25,181 nucleotides of DNA, taken from IMG/VR virus record IMGVR_UViG_3300017755_000097, positions 1-25,181 of that record; one strand, given 5' to 3'. Below, one piece after another: positions 19,977 to 25,181 of this stretch (within the stretch, counting starts at the first letter, position 1; every line of letters begins with the position of its first letter). The position numbers and the translations under genes are program-made. The stretch is from a virus. The notes under the pieces were generated by a model. That model worked only from the letters and a program-made list of their open reading frames with translations. It was not told where the DNA came from and made no database searches.

Positions 19977-20450
19977 ATGGCAGATTTAATTCGTAAGAAC
20001 TACGACAGGGCGCAGCCCACTCACGACTACATGAAATACTGGCGTGTAATACGCTACTGGGCTAAGGCCAAGTACAATATCGGAACACCCGACATTGATA
20101 TGCTGTTCTTCCTCTACAGCGAGCATATATTCAACAAGACCAAGTTCAAGGAGTTCGAGCAGTGTATGTCGTGGGACGAGCCACGGTTCTATAGACTACT
20201 TAACGAAGGATGGATCCACGTATGGAGAAAAAGGCAGGGAAAGGAAACAACCCTATACGAATTATCGTATAAGGGAAAGCGCCTTGTGAATACACTATAC
20301 AAAAAATTAAACGGCGAGGAGATCGGAGAATCTCCGAGCATGAATCCGCTCTTCAGAGCGGACGCTTCCTACATGGATAAGGTATATCGAAATATGATTA
20401 TAGAGATGAACCAGTTTACAAAACAACAACGACATCTCGCTCCTGAATAA
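19977..20450 (+). CDS. Winged-helix-like DNA-binding protein candidate
   Basis: This 157-residue protein is read from ATG at 19977-19979. A longer opening would run into the divergent gene. It has KYWRVIRYWAKAKYNIGTPD, then DMLFFLYSEHIFNKTKFKEF, EQCMSWDEPRFYRLLNEGWI and HVWRKRQGKETTLYELSYKG. The order of a helix-rich segment, a recognition-helix-like part and a beta-wing (WIHVWRKRQ..TLYELSYKGK) is the pattern of MarR-like winged helices, at about residues 36-112. It may regulate late genes, as it sits alone between divergent and convergent neighbours. It overlaps groES by 35 bases on the opposite strand. Function is by fold resemblance only. Confidence 0.65.
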   Translation: MADLIRKNYDRAQPTHDYMKYWRVIRYWAKAKYNIGTPDIDMLFFLYSEHIFNKTKFKEFEQCMSWDEPRFYRLLNEGWIHVWRKRQGKETTLYELSYKGKRLVNTLYKKLNGEEIGESPSMNPLFRADASYMDKVYRNMIIEMNQFTKQQRHLAPE

Positions 20451-20673
20451 TTGTATACGCCTCATCTTTAATAAACAGGGAATGACCTGCTGCCTTGTCG
20501 TAGTAGATAAGGTCATCAGGCTTTATGATCTCAACCTCAGTCCCTGGCTTGACAACCTGAGCTTTGTGGTATCGAAATCCGGAAGCATCCTCCTGAGACA
20601 GGAGGAGCCCGGAAGAGGTTTTGAGTTTCTCCTCAACCTTCTTAATTAATATGTTCTTGCCTATCGGTATCAT
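20416..20673 (-). CDS. groES: Co-chaperonin GroES (cpn10), short phage form
   Basis: This 85-residue protein is cpn10-like: MIPIGKNILIKKVEEKLKTS opens with the first strand, then SGLLLSQEDASGFRYHKAQV forms the mobile-loop region. KTSSGLLLS matches the position of the loop's hydrophobic tripeptide, which binds GroEL (GIVL in E. coli). Later strands include VKPGTEVEIIKPDDLIYYDK and ERDVVVVL. It is about 12 residues shorter than bacterial GroES (near 97), so loops are trimmed. It starts within the end of groEL (four-base ATGA overlap). It caps the phage or host GroEL during folding of phage proteins, probably capsid. Confidence 0.85.
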   Translation of the reverse strand: MIPIGKNILIKKVEEKLKTSSGLLLSQEDASGFRYHKAQVVKPGTEVEIIKPDDLIYYDKAAGHSLFIKDEAYTIIQERDVVVVL

Positions 20674-22262
20674 GACTCTGCTCTTGCGTGTGTGATAATA
20701 GCGTTAGTACTTAAGATAGTTGTCGCGACACTGCTCGCATTGATCAGCGCGTTCTTAGTCACCTTCACCGGATCAATAACACCCATCTTAAACATATCGC
20801 CGTACTTCTCGTTCTTAACGTCAAACCCATTGACGTCATCCACTAAGCCATCCAACATAATCTCGTCAGCGCTCTTGCCAGCGTTCTCCAGGATCTGAGT
20901 TAACGGTGAACGCAGCGCAATACGAAGTACGTCATACGCCACCTCCTGGTTAGGGTCATCGCACTCAACATCGAACAGCTCGGCACATCGCCATAACGCC
21001 AGCCCGCCGCCAGGTAGGATACCCTCCTGCATCGCAGATCGCACAGCACACACCGAATCGTCAACACGGTCGTACTTCTCCTTCTGCTCAATGTCAGAGT
21101 CACCTCCTACATAGATACACCCTATGCCACCCATCAAGCTGGCTATCCGAGAGTTGATAAAGTCACGGTCACCCTTGATCTGTGTTCGCTGCTGCTGCTC
21201 CTTGAGCTCTTCAACCCGTAGCTTAATCTCCTCACTGATCTCATTGCCGGTGATGATCACCGTTGATTCCTTGCCAACCACGATCTTGTCAGCATGCCCC
21301 AGGTCCTTAGGTAGGATAAGGCTCAGGTCATCGCCCGTCTTCTCAGAGAAGTAGGTCGCACCCACAGCCAGTGCAATGTCCTGCATCAGCTCGTGTTGCT
21401 TGTACCCAAAGTTGGGCGGTGTGATGTTACAGAACTTAAGTCCGTTCTTCACCACGTTAGCCGCTAATGTGTTGACCATGTTCCCGCTACACGATCCAAT
21501 GATCAGCAGCTTCTCGTTCTTGGCGATGATCTCCTTGAGCACGTTCTCAATCTGTAGTATGTTACTGATCTCACCGTCATACGCCAGGATGCGCACATCA
21601 TCCATAACGCACTCGTCCTTACGCTGGTTATTAATGAACAGCGGCGATGTGTACCCACGATCAATCTTAATACCATTAGTAATCTCGGCGTAGGTGTCGG
21701 AGGTCTGCGACTTCTCAACCGTCACTATACCGTTCTCACCCACAGCCTTATAAGCCTTCGATATAATATCACCGAGCTCCTTGTCGTTGTTAGCAGAGAT
21801 AGTAGCCACATCAAGCATACGCTTGTCAGTCACCTTACGCGACTTCTTAGAGAGCTCACTCAGCACACGGTCCACACCCTCGCGGATATAGTTAATGATC
21901 TCCGTTCTGTTGCTGTTCTCATCCATGGCATCAATGCCGGCACGAACAATAGCCTCGGTCAACACAATCGCCGTTGTCGTTCCATCACCCGCCACATTAG
22001 CCGTCTTGTATGCAGCCTCCTTCATCATGCGAACCGCAAGGTTCTCAACCGGATCATAGAGATCGACAGACTTAGCAACGGTGACCCCGTCCTTAGTTAC
22101 TGTAATGCCGTGTGTGTGATGTGGTGATTCAATAACAACCGTCTGACCTCTCGGGCCTAACGTGCTCTTGACAGCTTTAGAGATTGCTGTAATACCCTTA
22201 ATAAGTTTCGCCCGTGCATCATTGTCGAAGCACAGGTCTTTAGAAATGTAACCCTGTTCCAT
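20670..22262 (-). CDS. groEL: Chaperonin GroEL (phage-encoded)
   Basis: This 530-residue protein is a full-length group I chaperonin. ATP-site residues are present: GPRG (36-39), TKDG with D58, AGDGTTT with D93 (E. coli D87), RVDD with D402 (E. coli D398) and PGGG (417-420), and GVIDPVKVT with D497. The apical GroES- and substrate-binding region has DRGYTSPLFINN (201-212). The tyrosine at E. coli Y203 is leucine here. The C-terminus ends TILSTNAIITHARAES and lacks the GGM tail of bacterial GroEL. It lies upstream of groES, the reverse of the bacterial order. The gene looks richer in G+C than its neighbours. A TATATTTG box lies 16 bases upstream. It likely folds phage capsid and other virion proteins. 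Confidence 0.95.
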   Translation of the reverse strand: MEQGYISKDLCFDNDARAKLIKGITAISKAVKSTLGPRGQTVVIESPHHTHGITVTKDGVTVAKSVDLYDPVENLAVRMMKEAAYKTANVAGDGTTTAIVLTEAIVRAGIDAMDENSNRTEIINYIREGVDRVLSELSKKSRKVTDKRMLDVATISANNDKELGDIISKAYKAVGENGIVTVEKSQTSDTYAEITNGIKIDRGYTSPLFINNQRKDECVMDDVRILAYDGEISNILQIENVLKEIIAKNEKLLIIGSCSGNMVNTLAANVVKNGLKFCNITPPNFGYKQHELMQDIALAVGATYFSEKTGDDLSLILPKDLGHADKIVVGKESTVIITGNEISEEIKLRVEELKEQQQRTQIKGDRDFINSRIASLMGGIGCIYVGGDSDIEQKEKYDRVDDSVCAVRSAMQEGILPGGGLALWRCAELFDVECDDPNQEVAYDVLRIALRSPLTQILENAGKSADEIMLDGLVDDVNGFDVKNEKYGDMFKMGVIDPVKVTKNALINASSVATTILSTNAIITHARAES

Positions 22263-22604: not shown

Positions 22605-23078
22605 CTACTTAATAAAACATATCCAATGAGTTTGCATTCGCTTGCCAGACTTGTGTCCGTACAATGGCTTTTTGTCAGTAAGCTTTAGCACCTCTTTTAC
22701 CGGGAACTGAACCTCGTTCCATTTAAATATCAAAGTGCCATTTGGCTTAAGAACTCTAAAACATTCTTTGAAGCCCTGCCTTATCATATCCTGCCATCCA
22801 TCCTGAAGGTTGCCGTACTTCTTGGTTATCTGGCCGAGCTTGTTTCTTTTAATGTGTGGAGGATCATATACAACGTGATAAAAAGAATTGTCAGGTTGCT
22901 TGATGTCTGTAAAGTCTCCTATTATGTCAGGATCTATTATATTGGTTTTGGTTCCACAAGGGTACTTGTCAATGTGAGTCTCTCTTCTGTTGTCAAGGTA
23001 TAGAGCTCTTTGATCATTCTTATCAAACCACATCCCTTTGGGCCCACAACATACATCTAAAACAGTTTTATCATTCAT
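22605..23078 (-). CDS. SAM-dependent methyltransferase, phage class I
   Basis: This 157-residue class I methyltransferase has motif I LDVCCGPKGMW (residues 7-17) binding S-adenosylmethionine, an acidic residue after YLDNRRE (about 27-33), and motif IV YDPPHIKRN (71-79), an N-type DPP[HYWF] signature. WQDMIRQGFKECFRVLKPNG (95-114) and a closing GHKSGKRMQTHWICFIK follow. The order LD-CCG-K-MWFDK...DPPH...GFKECFRVLKPNG-L-FKW...HKSGKR-THWICF is a family I recall in many phages and prophages. The substrate is unknown: DNA adenine or cytosine N4 is possible, and so is RNA. It is the first gene of the operon leading to groEL. Confidence 0.85.
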   Translation of the reverse strand: MNDKTVLDVCCGPKGMWFDKNDQRALYLDNRRETHIDKYPCGTKTNIIDPDIIGDFTDIKQPDNSFYHVVYDPPHIKRNKLGQITKKYGNLQDGWQDMIRQGFKECFRVLKPNGTLIFKWNEVQFPVKEVLKLTDKKPLYGHKSGKRMQTHWICFIK

Positions 23079-23533: not shown

Positions 23534-23648
23534 AGTTGTTAGTGTTTTTGTAAAGATAATAAATTTTGTCAGATACCTGGGGGTTGAGGGTTATAATATA
23601 ATATACGTACAATGTGTGTGTCGCGAAAACGATATTTTTTTCGAGGGT

Positions 23649-23672
23649 GGGGGGTCGTTTTTGACTTCCCCC
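23649..23672 (+). other. Bulged G/C hairpin
   Basis: GGGGG-GTC pairs with GAC-(TT)-CCCCC around a GTTTTT loop (two-base bulge). A T run follows seven bases later, so this could be a weak rightward terminator or only a structural signal. Its position in a gene-free divergent gap is odd. Confidence 0.35.
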
Positions 23673-23711
23673 TTGCGATTTTTTTGCCTTTTTGCCTTGC
23701 CTCCTGCTGGG

Positions 23712-23752
23712 CAGGTAGGGTAGGTTGGTGGTGGTGGTGGTGGTGCTACCTG
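23712..23752. repeat. Inverted repeat enclosing a (TGG)6 microsatellite
   Basis: Arms CAGGTAG (23712-23718) and CTACCTG (23746-23752) enclose a G-rich loop with GGTAGG and (TGG)6 (23726-23743). The loop could form a G-quadruplex in single-stranded DNA or RNA. It is unlike any other sequence in the window. Confidence 0.45.
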
Positions 23753-23790
23753 TTACGTTACACGATGGCACCCCTTCCCTTCCCTTTGCT

Positions 23791-23810
23791 CCCCGCTCCG
23801 CCCCGCTCCG
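23791..23810. repeat. Tandem decamer CCCCGCTCCG x2
   Basis: The decamer CCCCGCTCCG occurs twice without a gap, at the end of a C-rich stretch (about 23771-23817). It is in an otherwise AT-rich gap. It may be an origin, binding-site or terminal feature. Confidence 0.4.
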
Positions 23811-24044
23811 CCCTCCAGTAAAGAGAATATTAAAGAGTAATAGAGAGGAAGACCTTCCCTTTAGAACCCCTTCGATTACCTCACAATCAAAACAAAACAC
23901 AAAATAAATGCATTTCGTAAACCCTTTGTTATCCAGCGTTTGCGAGATAAAATGAAACGGAAGTATACTTTTCTTCGTATCAGATTAGGATGGTAACTAT
24001 ATTTAGACTATCTTCACACAATCGTTAAACATTAAATAAACATT

Positions 24045-24260
24045 ATGAGCAAATTAAAGAATTATCATTTCAACTGGAAAGACCAAGAGGGTATGTATTG
24101 CGGATTCAATGACGTGTGGGCATATTCTAAAAGAGAGGCCATCAAAAAGATTCGTGAAATGGAGTCAAAGAATATGATGTTAGCCATTGAAACAATGGAG
24201 ATTGCAGATGCTGAATACAGACGCAAGATGACTGAACTCGGCAACTTTATGGCATCTTGA
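24045..24260 (+). CDS. Small protein, first gene of the ribozyme-punctuated operon
   Basis: This 71-residue protein starts MSKLKNYHFNWKDQEGMYCG and has FNDVWAYSKREAIKKIREME, with a helical C-terminal half (IETMEIADAEYRRKMTELGN). The pattern of an aromatic strand followed by an A-x-S-x-x-EA-x-x-I helix is common in tiny phage proteins. No function is recognised. The ATG follows an A/T-rich leader (TTAAATAAACATT) without a Shine-Dalgarno sequence. The stop is at 24258-24260, four bases before hammerhead 1. It probably shares a promoter in the divergent gap with the genes that follow. Confidence 0.66.
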   Translation: MSKLKNYHFNWKDQEGMYCGFNDVWAYSKREAIKKIREMESKNMMLAIETMEIADAEYRRKMTELGNFMAS

Positions 24261-24264
24261 TAGA

Positions 24265-24322
24265 GGTTAACTGACGAGTCCTAATTGGACGAAACGCTGG
24301 GTGTATGCCCAGCGTCTTAACC
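24265..24322 (+). ncRNA. Hammerhead ribozyme 1 (type I)
   Basis: Stem I is GGTTAA (24265-24270) with TTAACC (24317-24322), open at the ends, so this is type I. The core is CTGACGA (24271-24277), stem II GTCC-TAATT-GGAC (24278-24290), GAAA (24291-24294), stem III CGCTGGG with CCCAGCG (24295-24301, 24308-24314; loop TGTATG), then TC. A15.1-U16.1 and C15.2-G16.2 are in place. Cleavage is expected after C24316. It lies between the stop at 24260 and the start at 24338, in the sense direction of the operon. It would cut the RNA so the downstream gene begins with a 21-base 5'-OH leader. Confidence 0.92.
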
Positions 24323-24337
24323 ATAAAAATGAATATT

Positions 24338-24595
24338 ATGAATGACAAGGATTTATCACGTTTATACAAGCGCCTTGAGGGTGTCTTGTTTGAGATTTAT
24401 GACGCTCTCGACCATAACCAAGAGAGAGCCAAAGAACTTGGAGATGAGGCGTTAGCAAAAGCCTATCGAGACTTAGTTAATGACTTGGAGTGGAGGCATT
24501 GCAATGGCGATAGTGCTGTTGAGGATGTCTATGGTCGGATTAAGTGGCTCAGAAAGCCGTCAGCTGATGGCGTGGGAAAGGAGGTGGAGTGTTAG
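24338..24595 (+). CDS. Small protein, second gene of the ribozyme operon
   Basis: This 85-residue protein starts MNDKDLSRLYKRLEGVLFEI and has DALDHNQERAKELGDEALAK, a helical acidic and basic mix. The start was set at 24338-24340 because the sister gene at 24668 has its only ATG at the matching place. Upstream ATGs at 24329 and, in the ribozyme loop, 24305 are in frame. The stop TAG (24593-24595) shares its last base with the first base of hammerhead 2. No function is recognised. In cut RNA it would have a 21-base A/T-rich leader (TTAACCATAAAAATGAATATT). Confidence 0.66.
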   Translation: MNDKDLSRLYKRLEGVLFEIYDALDHNQERAKELGDEALAKAYRDLVNDLEWRHCNGDSAVEDVYGRIKWLRKPSADGVGKEVEC

Positions 24596-24652
24596 GTTAA
24601 CTGACGAGGATTCAATATCCGAAACGCTGGGTGTATGCCCAGCGTCTTAACC
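24595..24652 (+). ncRNA. Hammerhead ribozyme 2 (type I)
   Basis: Stem I is GGTTAA (24595-24600) with TTAACC (24647-24652). The core CTGACGA (24601-24607) is followed by stem II GGAT-TCAAT-ATCC (24608-24620), GAAA (24621-24624) and stem III CGCTGGG/CCCAGCG (24625-24631, 24638-24644), then TC. Cleavage is expected after C24646. Compared with ribozyme 1, stem II changes on both sides (GTCC/GGAC to GGAT/ATCC) but stays paired, which shows selection for structure. The first base is the last base of the stop codon of the upstream gene. Confidence 0.92.
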
Positions 24653-24667
24653 ATAAAAATAAATATT

Positions 24668-24877
24668 ATGAATACAATTACAGAAACAAAGGTCTTGAGA
24701 TTTAAGATGGTTCTACCCTTAGAAATATGGGATGAATTTGATGTGGCTATGGATTTGAATGGCGAATGGTCAAAGCGACTATTGAGCCGTGACGTTGAGG
24801 GGGTTCGCCTTACTGACATAGTTCACGACATCAGAGGCATCTTGAAGGGTTGTGAGTTTTTCTTGCCAAGACTCTGA
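24668..24877 (+). CDS. Small protein, third gene of the ribozyme operon
   Basis: This 69-residue protein starts MNTITETKVLRFKMVLPLEI and has WDEFDVAMDLNGEWSKRLLS, then LTDIVHDIRGILKGCEFFLP. The ATG at 24668-24670 follows AAAAATAAATATT. An in-frame ATG at 24635 inside hammerhead 2 would add 11 residues to uncut RNA. It is a mixed alpha/beta protein. The final segment could be a helix ending in Arg-Leu. No function is recognised. Confidence 0.64.
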   Translation: MNTITETKVLRFKMVLPLEIWDEFDVAMDLNGEWSKRLLSRDVEGVRLTDIVHDIRGILKGCEFFLPRL

Positions 24878-24923
24878 AAAAACCGATCGGAAATCCAATC
24901 TGAAAAACTGATCGGAAATCCAA
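24873..24923 (+). repeat. Tandem 26/25-base repeat before hammerhead 3
   Basis: Two adjacent near-identical copies lie at 24873-24898 and 24899-24923, both containing GATCGGAAATCCAA. They start at the stop of the third gene and end at the base before hammerhead 3. The copies differ by one base of length and a CC/CT change. Each has CTGA and GAAA, but no stem II or stem III, so neither is a ribozyme. Confidence 0.6.
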
Positions 24924-24981
24924 GATTATCTGACGAGCCTTGAATAGGCGAAACGCTGAGCATCTGCTCGGCGTCATAATC
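24924..24981 (+). ncRNA. Hammerhead ribozyme 3 (type I)
   Basis: Stem I is GATTAT (24924-24929) with ATAATC (24976-24981). The core CTGACGA (24930-24936) is followed by stem II GCCT-TGAAT-AGGC (24937-24949), GAAA (24950-24953) and stem III CGCTGAGC/GCTCGGCG (24954-24961, 24966-24973; one T-G pair, loop ATCT), then TC. Cleavage is expected after C24975. All three stems differ from ribozymes 1 and 2 and still pair, with changes on both strands. The downstream gene starts at 24989 or 24995, 13 or 19 bases after the cut. Confidence 0.9.
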
Positions 24982-24988
24982 AAATTGA

Positions 24989-25181
24989 ATGAACATGAAG
25001 AGTAGTATTAGAAAAGAGTTAGGTGTATACATCAATGAATGCCTCGAGGATGGCCTCAAGAGCCATAACGAGATGTTCAATGAAGGTCTCTATCTGCACG
25101 GCAATCAACAATGCCTTGACTGGCTAAACCATCACAACCTTGACGTATTGAGTGCTATCAGCATTTGCCGTGAATATCAAA
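24989..25181 (+). CDS. Small protein, fourth gene of the ribozyme operon, runs past the window end
   Basis: The open frame begins MNMKSSIRKELGVYINECLE and continues DGLKSHNEMFNEGLYLHGNQ, then QCLDWLNHHNLDVLSAISIC, ending REYQ at the window edge without a stop. The start may be ATG 24989 or 24995. The middle looks helical and acidic, with several His and Asn. No function is recognised. Another ribozyme after it cannot be checked. Confidence 0.6.
   Translation, partial: MNMKSSIRKELGVYINECLEDGLKSHNEMFNEGLYLHGNQQCLDWLNHHNLDVLSAISICREYQ

Follow-up and report, generated by a model that had tools for sequence, protein, structure and literature searches.

Type I hammerhead ribozymes as probable self-cleaving punctuation of an early operon in an Elemovirus-like phage

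The window analyzed here is the whole 25,181-base stretch of IMG/VR virus record IMGVR_UViG_3300017755_000097, which is a piece of a larger genome. It comes from an Elemovirus-like podovirus of Bacteroidota that has Flavobacterium phages as relatives; its terminase shows 73% identity to MW202828.1 (a circular, 60.8-kb podovirus) and 45% to Flavobacterium elemo phages. Most genes in the window, structural ones included, are carried on the minus strand, and three hammerhead ribozymes (HHR1 to HHR3) lie at its right end, within an operon of small genes that runs divergently on the plus strand (Table 1). The phage GroEL gene is divergent from this operon, and relatives of the GroEL are encoded in over 400 viral stretches. 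The alignment of a related contig, L085, to the window stops near the low-complexity tract that lies between the divergent operons. When the array region was compared with named phages by blastn, there were zero matches.

Table 1. Features of the window and of ribozyme-carrying relatives discussed in the text.
Feature	Position	Strand	Remarks
GroEL, 530 aa	20670..22262	-	Pfam Cpn60_TCP1, E 6e-58
GroEL and following 85-aa ORF	20416-22262		MW202828.1 has an annotated chaperonin 10 kd subunit at the place of the 85-aa ORF
157-aa ORF	22605-23078	-	Weak methyltransferase similarity, under Pfam cut-offs
Low-complexity tract	23620-23830		TGG and CCGCT repeats; separates divergent operons
Promoter-like/leader block	23990..24044	+	TATCTTcA..ACAATcGTTAAAC; by alignment, common to L086
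ORF1, 71 aa	24045..24260	+	First gene past the promoter-like block; stop 24258-24260
HHR1, type I hammerhead	24265..24322	+	Stems I GGTTAA/TTAACC, II GTCC/GGAC, III CGCTGGG/CCCAGCG; predicted cut 24316/24317; sequence, fold, covariance model 63.5 bits
ORF2, about 85 aa	24338..24595	+	In-frame alternative ATG 24329; TAG stop 24593-24595 overlaps HHR2
HHR2, type I hammerhead	24595..24652	+	Stems I and III as in HHR1, II GGAT/ATCC; predicted cut 24646/24647; sequence, fold, covariance model 62.4 bits
ORF3, 69 aa	24668..24877	+	L086 orthologue, 53% identity; stop 24875-24877
Tandem repeat	24873-24923		25-nt unit TCTGAAAAAACCGATCGGAAATCCAA twice, between the ORF3 stop and HHR3
HHR3, type I hammerhead	24924..24981	+	Stems I GATTAT/ATAATC, II GCCT/AGGC, stem III different; predicted cut 24975/24976; sequence, fold, covariance model 54.1 bits
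ORF4	24989..25181	+	Continues past the window end; ATG 24995 as an alternative start
Pistol ribozyme, phi19:3	L281 6382-6449		Above Rfam threshold
Elemo phage hammerhead	L283 2971-3078		A small antisense CDS is annotated across it
Nine-membered array	L286 648-4919		Layout similar to L321
Eight-membered array	L321 534-4571		Contig binned with an Aliivibrio genome

The block ahead of ORF1 would be the single start of the operon, with a putative promoter function. A family search gave no confident family for any of ORF1 to ORF4, and a protein scan of viral contigs for ORF2, ORF3, and ORF4 found no close relatives. As had been claimed, the hammerheads are intergenic and in the sense direction: a stop codon comes before each of them (directly ahead of HHR1, overlapped by HHR2, and 46 nt before the beginning of HHR3), and in-frame ATGs follow 12–21 nt past each predicted cut. 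The gaps at HHR1 and HHR2 are tight, unlike the repeat-containing gap ahead of HHR3. The three elements had been described as a regular array, but their 330/329-nt spacing is a local coincidence; a regular 330-nt spacing as a design was rejected given the irregular spacing of other arrays.

All three segments hold the complete core (CUGACGA, stem II, GAAA, stem III, UC) and pair in stems I, II, and III, and their topology is that of type I, with stem I open and loops closing stems II and III. In these respects, and in the positions of the cuts, our analysis agrees with the original prediction. Wholesale replacement of stem II is the sole difference between HHR1 and HHR2. When each segment is folded in isolation the hammerhead is its minimum-energy structure (z of −4.5, −3.9, and −3.2, respectively). 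By sequence and fold, HHR1 to HHR3 are hammerhead ribozymes of type I, with self-cleavage predicted.

An Rfam scan of the window at gathering scores returned no match, and all three copies fell below the gathering thresholds of RF00163, RF00008, and RF03152. With lax limits, the best scores against the respective gathering scores were 27.7/56.3 for RAGATH-1-hammerhead, 24.7/48.5 for Hammerhead_3, and 17.4/34 for Hammerhead_1. The copies share the core, the three stems, and the open stem I with Hammerhead_1 (RF00163), but their best score reaches just 17.4 of 34 bits and the phage set as a whole is largely sub-gathering. RAGATH-1 (RF03152) gives them their highest raw Rfam scores (27.7 and 27.3 bits), although its gathering score of 56.3 lies well above these and HHR1 aligns to model positions 26–77, without the extra 5′ hairpin (1–25). 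Formally, scores below threshold for all three copies are what the original prediction had named as grounds for its rejection; we do not count them as a refutation, because the same cut-offs overlook nearly all comparable phage hammerheads. Across 44 hammerhead-carrying loci (four scans), only two hammerheads scored at gathering, with 35.9 and 36.2 against 34. The gathering threshold is a database cut-off rather than a feature of the RNA class, and it is insensitive for the present set.

An independent covariance model, trained on 40 hammerheads from other contigs with the window left out, matched HHR1, HHR2, and HHR3 with E-values of 4e-13 or lower; across the entire window it gave no fourth match. 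A structural scanner requiring the exact core and minimum stem lengths of 4, 3, and 4 pairs had zero matches in 5 × 791 kb of shuffled sequence, and a chance origin was rejected on the basis of this empty result in about 4 Mb.

Viral contigs were surveyed with two search patterns. The first fixed only the core and part of stem III and yielded 78 viral stretches, about two thirds of which then had paired stems I to III; the second fixed four stem I bases, and its matches enter the survey as a lower bound. The combined scans comprise at least 167 contigs in at least 132 groups, with at least 216 distinct hammerheads; the groups are not fully independent, since contigs were grouped by shared identical ribozymes only. 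Among the matches listed, 48 of the 132 groups have two or more hammerheads, on a single strand in 48 of 48 cases, and the longest array has nine hammerheads in 4.3 kb (G014/L286).

The geometry seen in the window recurs across this set. For 201 hammerheads, an ATG opening a reading frame lies within 60 nt of the predicted cut in 81% (reversed, 5%; random, 23%), with a median cut-to-ATG distance of 25 nt. For the upstream stop, the share within 60 nt is 77% (reversed, 14%; random, 18%), a figure somewhat raised by stop triplets within the motif, which leave the ATG figure unaffected. Both occur within 60 nt for 64% of the 201 (reversed, 0%; random, 5%), and overlap of the stop with the 5′ strand of stem I, as for ORF2 at HHR2, is frequent.

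Pairing is likewise retained: in a comparative set of 40, two-sided changes were seen in 12 of 14 pairs with no unpaired cell, pairing itself having been a selection criterion. Among 153 members of the type, several unpaired positions that played no part in the search are conserved, namely an A immediately 5′ of stem I (99%) and another immediately 3′ of it (93%), and loop II has the form U-N-A-N-U (99, 87, and 86%), which was not used for detection either. All three window copies have both stem I-flanking As and the loop II motif, and these positions would fit a tertiary contact linking loop II with stem I. A helix extended past stem I was rejected (0.41 vs. 0.41 in shuffled partners).

Stem III varies greatly in length at its apical end and could house a sensor there, as would be expected if a protein, small RNA, or ion regulated the cut and so switched operon genes during infection. 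Such switching could also draw on the wider context of HHR1, where the predicted minimum-energy structure of 24240–24360 swaps stem I for a competing UUUAUGG/CCAUAAA helix. A conserved sensor domain is absent, however, and stem III is often just 4 bp with a tetraloop, so that regulated cutting seems highly improbable.

Related contigs were located with phage GroEL as an anchor. In 82 GroEL-anchored loci the covariance model finds 32 hammerheads, every one of them upstream of groEL and on the other strand; these 32 occupy the same divergent early operon. The contig L086 (GroEL identity 97%) keeps the promoter-like block and the ORF3 and ORF4 orthologues (56% identity for ORF4), but is without the ORF1-HHR1-ORF2-HHR2 block and without HHR3, such that no hammerhead lies between its ORF3 and ORF4 orthologues. 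Two other hammerheads occur further on in L086, one of which has an A-A mismatch at 10.1-11.1, next to the core, and may be a dying copy. In MW202828.1, a close named relative, the covariance model detects no hammerhead. Because MW202828.1 and the ORF3-ORF4 junction of L086 do without them, hammerheads are not essential for the operon. In L052 and L030, ORF4 relatives with 26–34% identity have a hammerhead directly upstream that is very different from that in the window; together with the L086 comparison, this indicates that the location can persist while the sequence changes, and that elements are gained and lost.

Such turnover is what would be expected if gene-ribozyme modules were mobile, the ribozymes being riders that are spread by recombination at the core and mark cassette borders without a selected RNA function here. 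That the ORF1-HHR1-ORF2-HHR2 block and HHR3 come and go while ORF3 and ORF4 stay, and that HHR1 and HHR2 are identical outside a wholly exchanged stem II, are both consistent with this, as are the long arrays of L286 and L321. These two arrays share single hairpins in new combinations, which suggests that stem II and III hairpins have been reshuffled between copies. We nevertheless consider mere riders unlikely: orientation, stop-cut-ATG spacing, pairing, and the likely tertiary-contact positions are kept in over a hundred groups, which indicates selection on the RNA, and the ORF4 relatives of L052 and L030 have their very different ribozymes at the same place.

The repeated stem I sequences bear on another reading, in which the ribozymes make gene-length circles. 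Here the 5′ end of a fragment would pair with stem I of the ribozyme at its own 3′ end, and closure would come from host RtcB or from a reversal of the cleavage, as for viroid-like RNAs and retrozymes. HHR1 and HHR2 have an identical stem I and would cross-pair over 6 bp, and fragment 24317–24646 could close in this way; moreover, in arrays found without stem I in the search pattern, stem I identity is 0.80 within arrays vs. 0.35 between them. In those same arrays, however, cross-pairing of at least 5 bp is possible for just 39% of neighbor pairs, the HHR2-HHR3 fragment of the window cross-pairs over 0 bp, and compensatory pair changes alter stem I inside arrays. Shared descent suffices for the likeness in stem I, because copies of one array resemble each other more in stem II and loop II as well. 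RtcB was absent in a search of 20 array-carrying or related records, a search for the PF09414 RNA ligase matched only Cellulophaga phage phi19:3, and Perreault et al. (2011; PMC3088659), who looked for circles, found none. Retrozymes and viroid-like circular RNAs also have type I hammerheads in tandem, but the window array is not one repeated unit and has different genes between its ribozymes, and neighboring stems I of phage arrays are often unable to cross-pair. Circularization as a general function is thus mostly unsupported by the cross-pairing and RtcB tests, and we regard it as very unlikely.

The covariance model also identified one hammerhead each, with E below 1e-9, in five cultured phages: phi19:3, Pelagibacter phages HTVC019P and Jormungand, and two Flavobacterium sp. 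BAL314 elemo phages. These hammerheads, too, sit in runs of small genes. The small antisense CDS annotated over one of the elemo phage hammerheads is probably an annotation artefact. The phi19:3 hammerhead separates two genes; two later genes of that early operon are separated by a pistol ribozyme (RF02679), which lies between the stop and the next start and, like the hammerheads, leaves a short leader ahead of the ATG. The pistol class is unrelated to the hammerhead and, judged by this placement, serves the same role in phi19:3.

We conclude that the hammerheads are probably self-cleaving punctuation that would split the early phage polycistronic RNA into units in the cell. A single putative promoter upstream of 24045 would drive the polycistronic RNA, and each ribozyme would fold during transcription and cut after the UC of its core. 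Each resulting unit would begin with a 5′-OH leader of about 12–25 nt ahead of the start codon and end with the ribozyme hairpins and a 2′,3′-cyclic phosphate. The likely benefit would be uniform mRNA ends for each small gene, as 5′-OH ends would withstand nucleases that require a 5′ phosphate and hairpin-capped ends would withstand 3′ exonucleases, and the mRNA stability and translation of neighboring genes would thereby be uncoupled. Selection on cutting is indicated because the geometry recurs and an unrelated ribozyme class takes the same role. Speaking against this reading are the competing helix predicted for stem I of HHR1 in its wider context, the absence of hammerheads from MW202828.1 and from the ORF3-ORF4 junction of L086, and the mismatched L086 copy. 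The proposal of processing to single-gene RNAs therefore stands as the best-supported reading, through the stop-ribozyme-leader-ATG geometry on one strand of a conserved operon, while its description of the array as regular and unusual does not.

Hammerheads in phages had been said to occur usually as single copies, which is wrong, as clusters have been known since 2011. Clustered prophage hammerheads that flank single genes or short blocks were described from A. tumefaciens (ardA), Azorhizobium, and C. scindens, with self-cleavage demonstrated in vitro and also, in one case, in E. coli, and the cutting of gene-length mRNAs was proposed (Perreault et al., 2011; PMC3088659). The idea of operon cutting is thus not new, since the same function was proposed there. 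As in those clusters, two or more same-strand hammerheads flank genes of one phage transcript in the window, whose phage, by contrast, is Elemovirus-like and belongs to the Flavobacterium/Cellulophaga phage group, and whose array involves small early genes. Further differences are arrays of up to nine (in relatives), the quantified stop-cut-ATG geometry, and gain and loss between close relatives. Beyond the 2011 work, the present set contributes scale, a fixed geometry, turnover among related phages, the blind spot of Rfam, and systems in culture.

More tentatively, and with somewhat less than even confidence, we suggest that such punctuation may be a general, selected design in many phages of Bacteroidota and other hosts. 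Cassette boundaries would cut themselves and leave a fixed leader of ~25 nt, hammerhead and pistol ribozymes would be interchangeable, hairpins would be reshuffled, gene-ribozyme modules would be gained and lost as units, and most of this would be invisible to Rfam with the cut-offs now in use. Standard Rfam annotation misses most phage ribozymes of the present set. The role of natural hammerheads in phage genomes has been a standing question since 2011, and with cultured phage-host pairs that carry the type, 5′-OH ends and effects on expression become measurable during infection.
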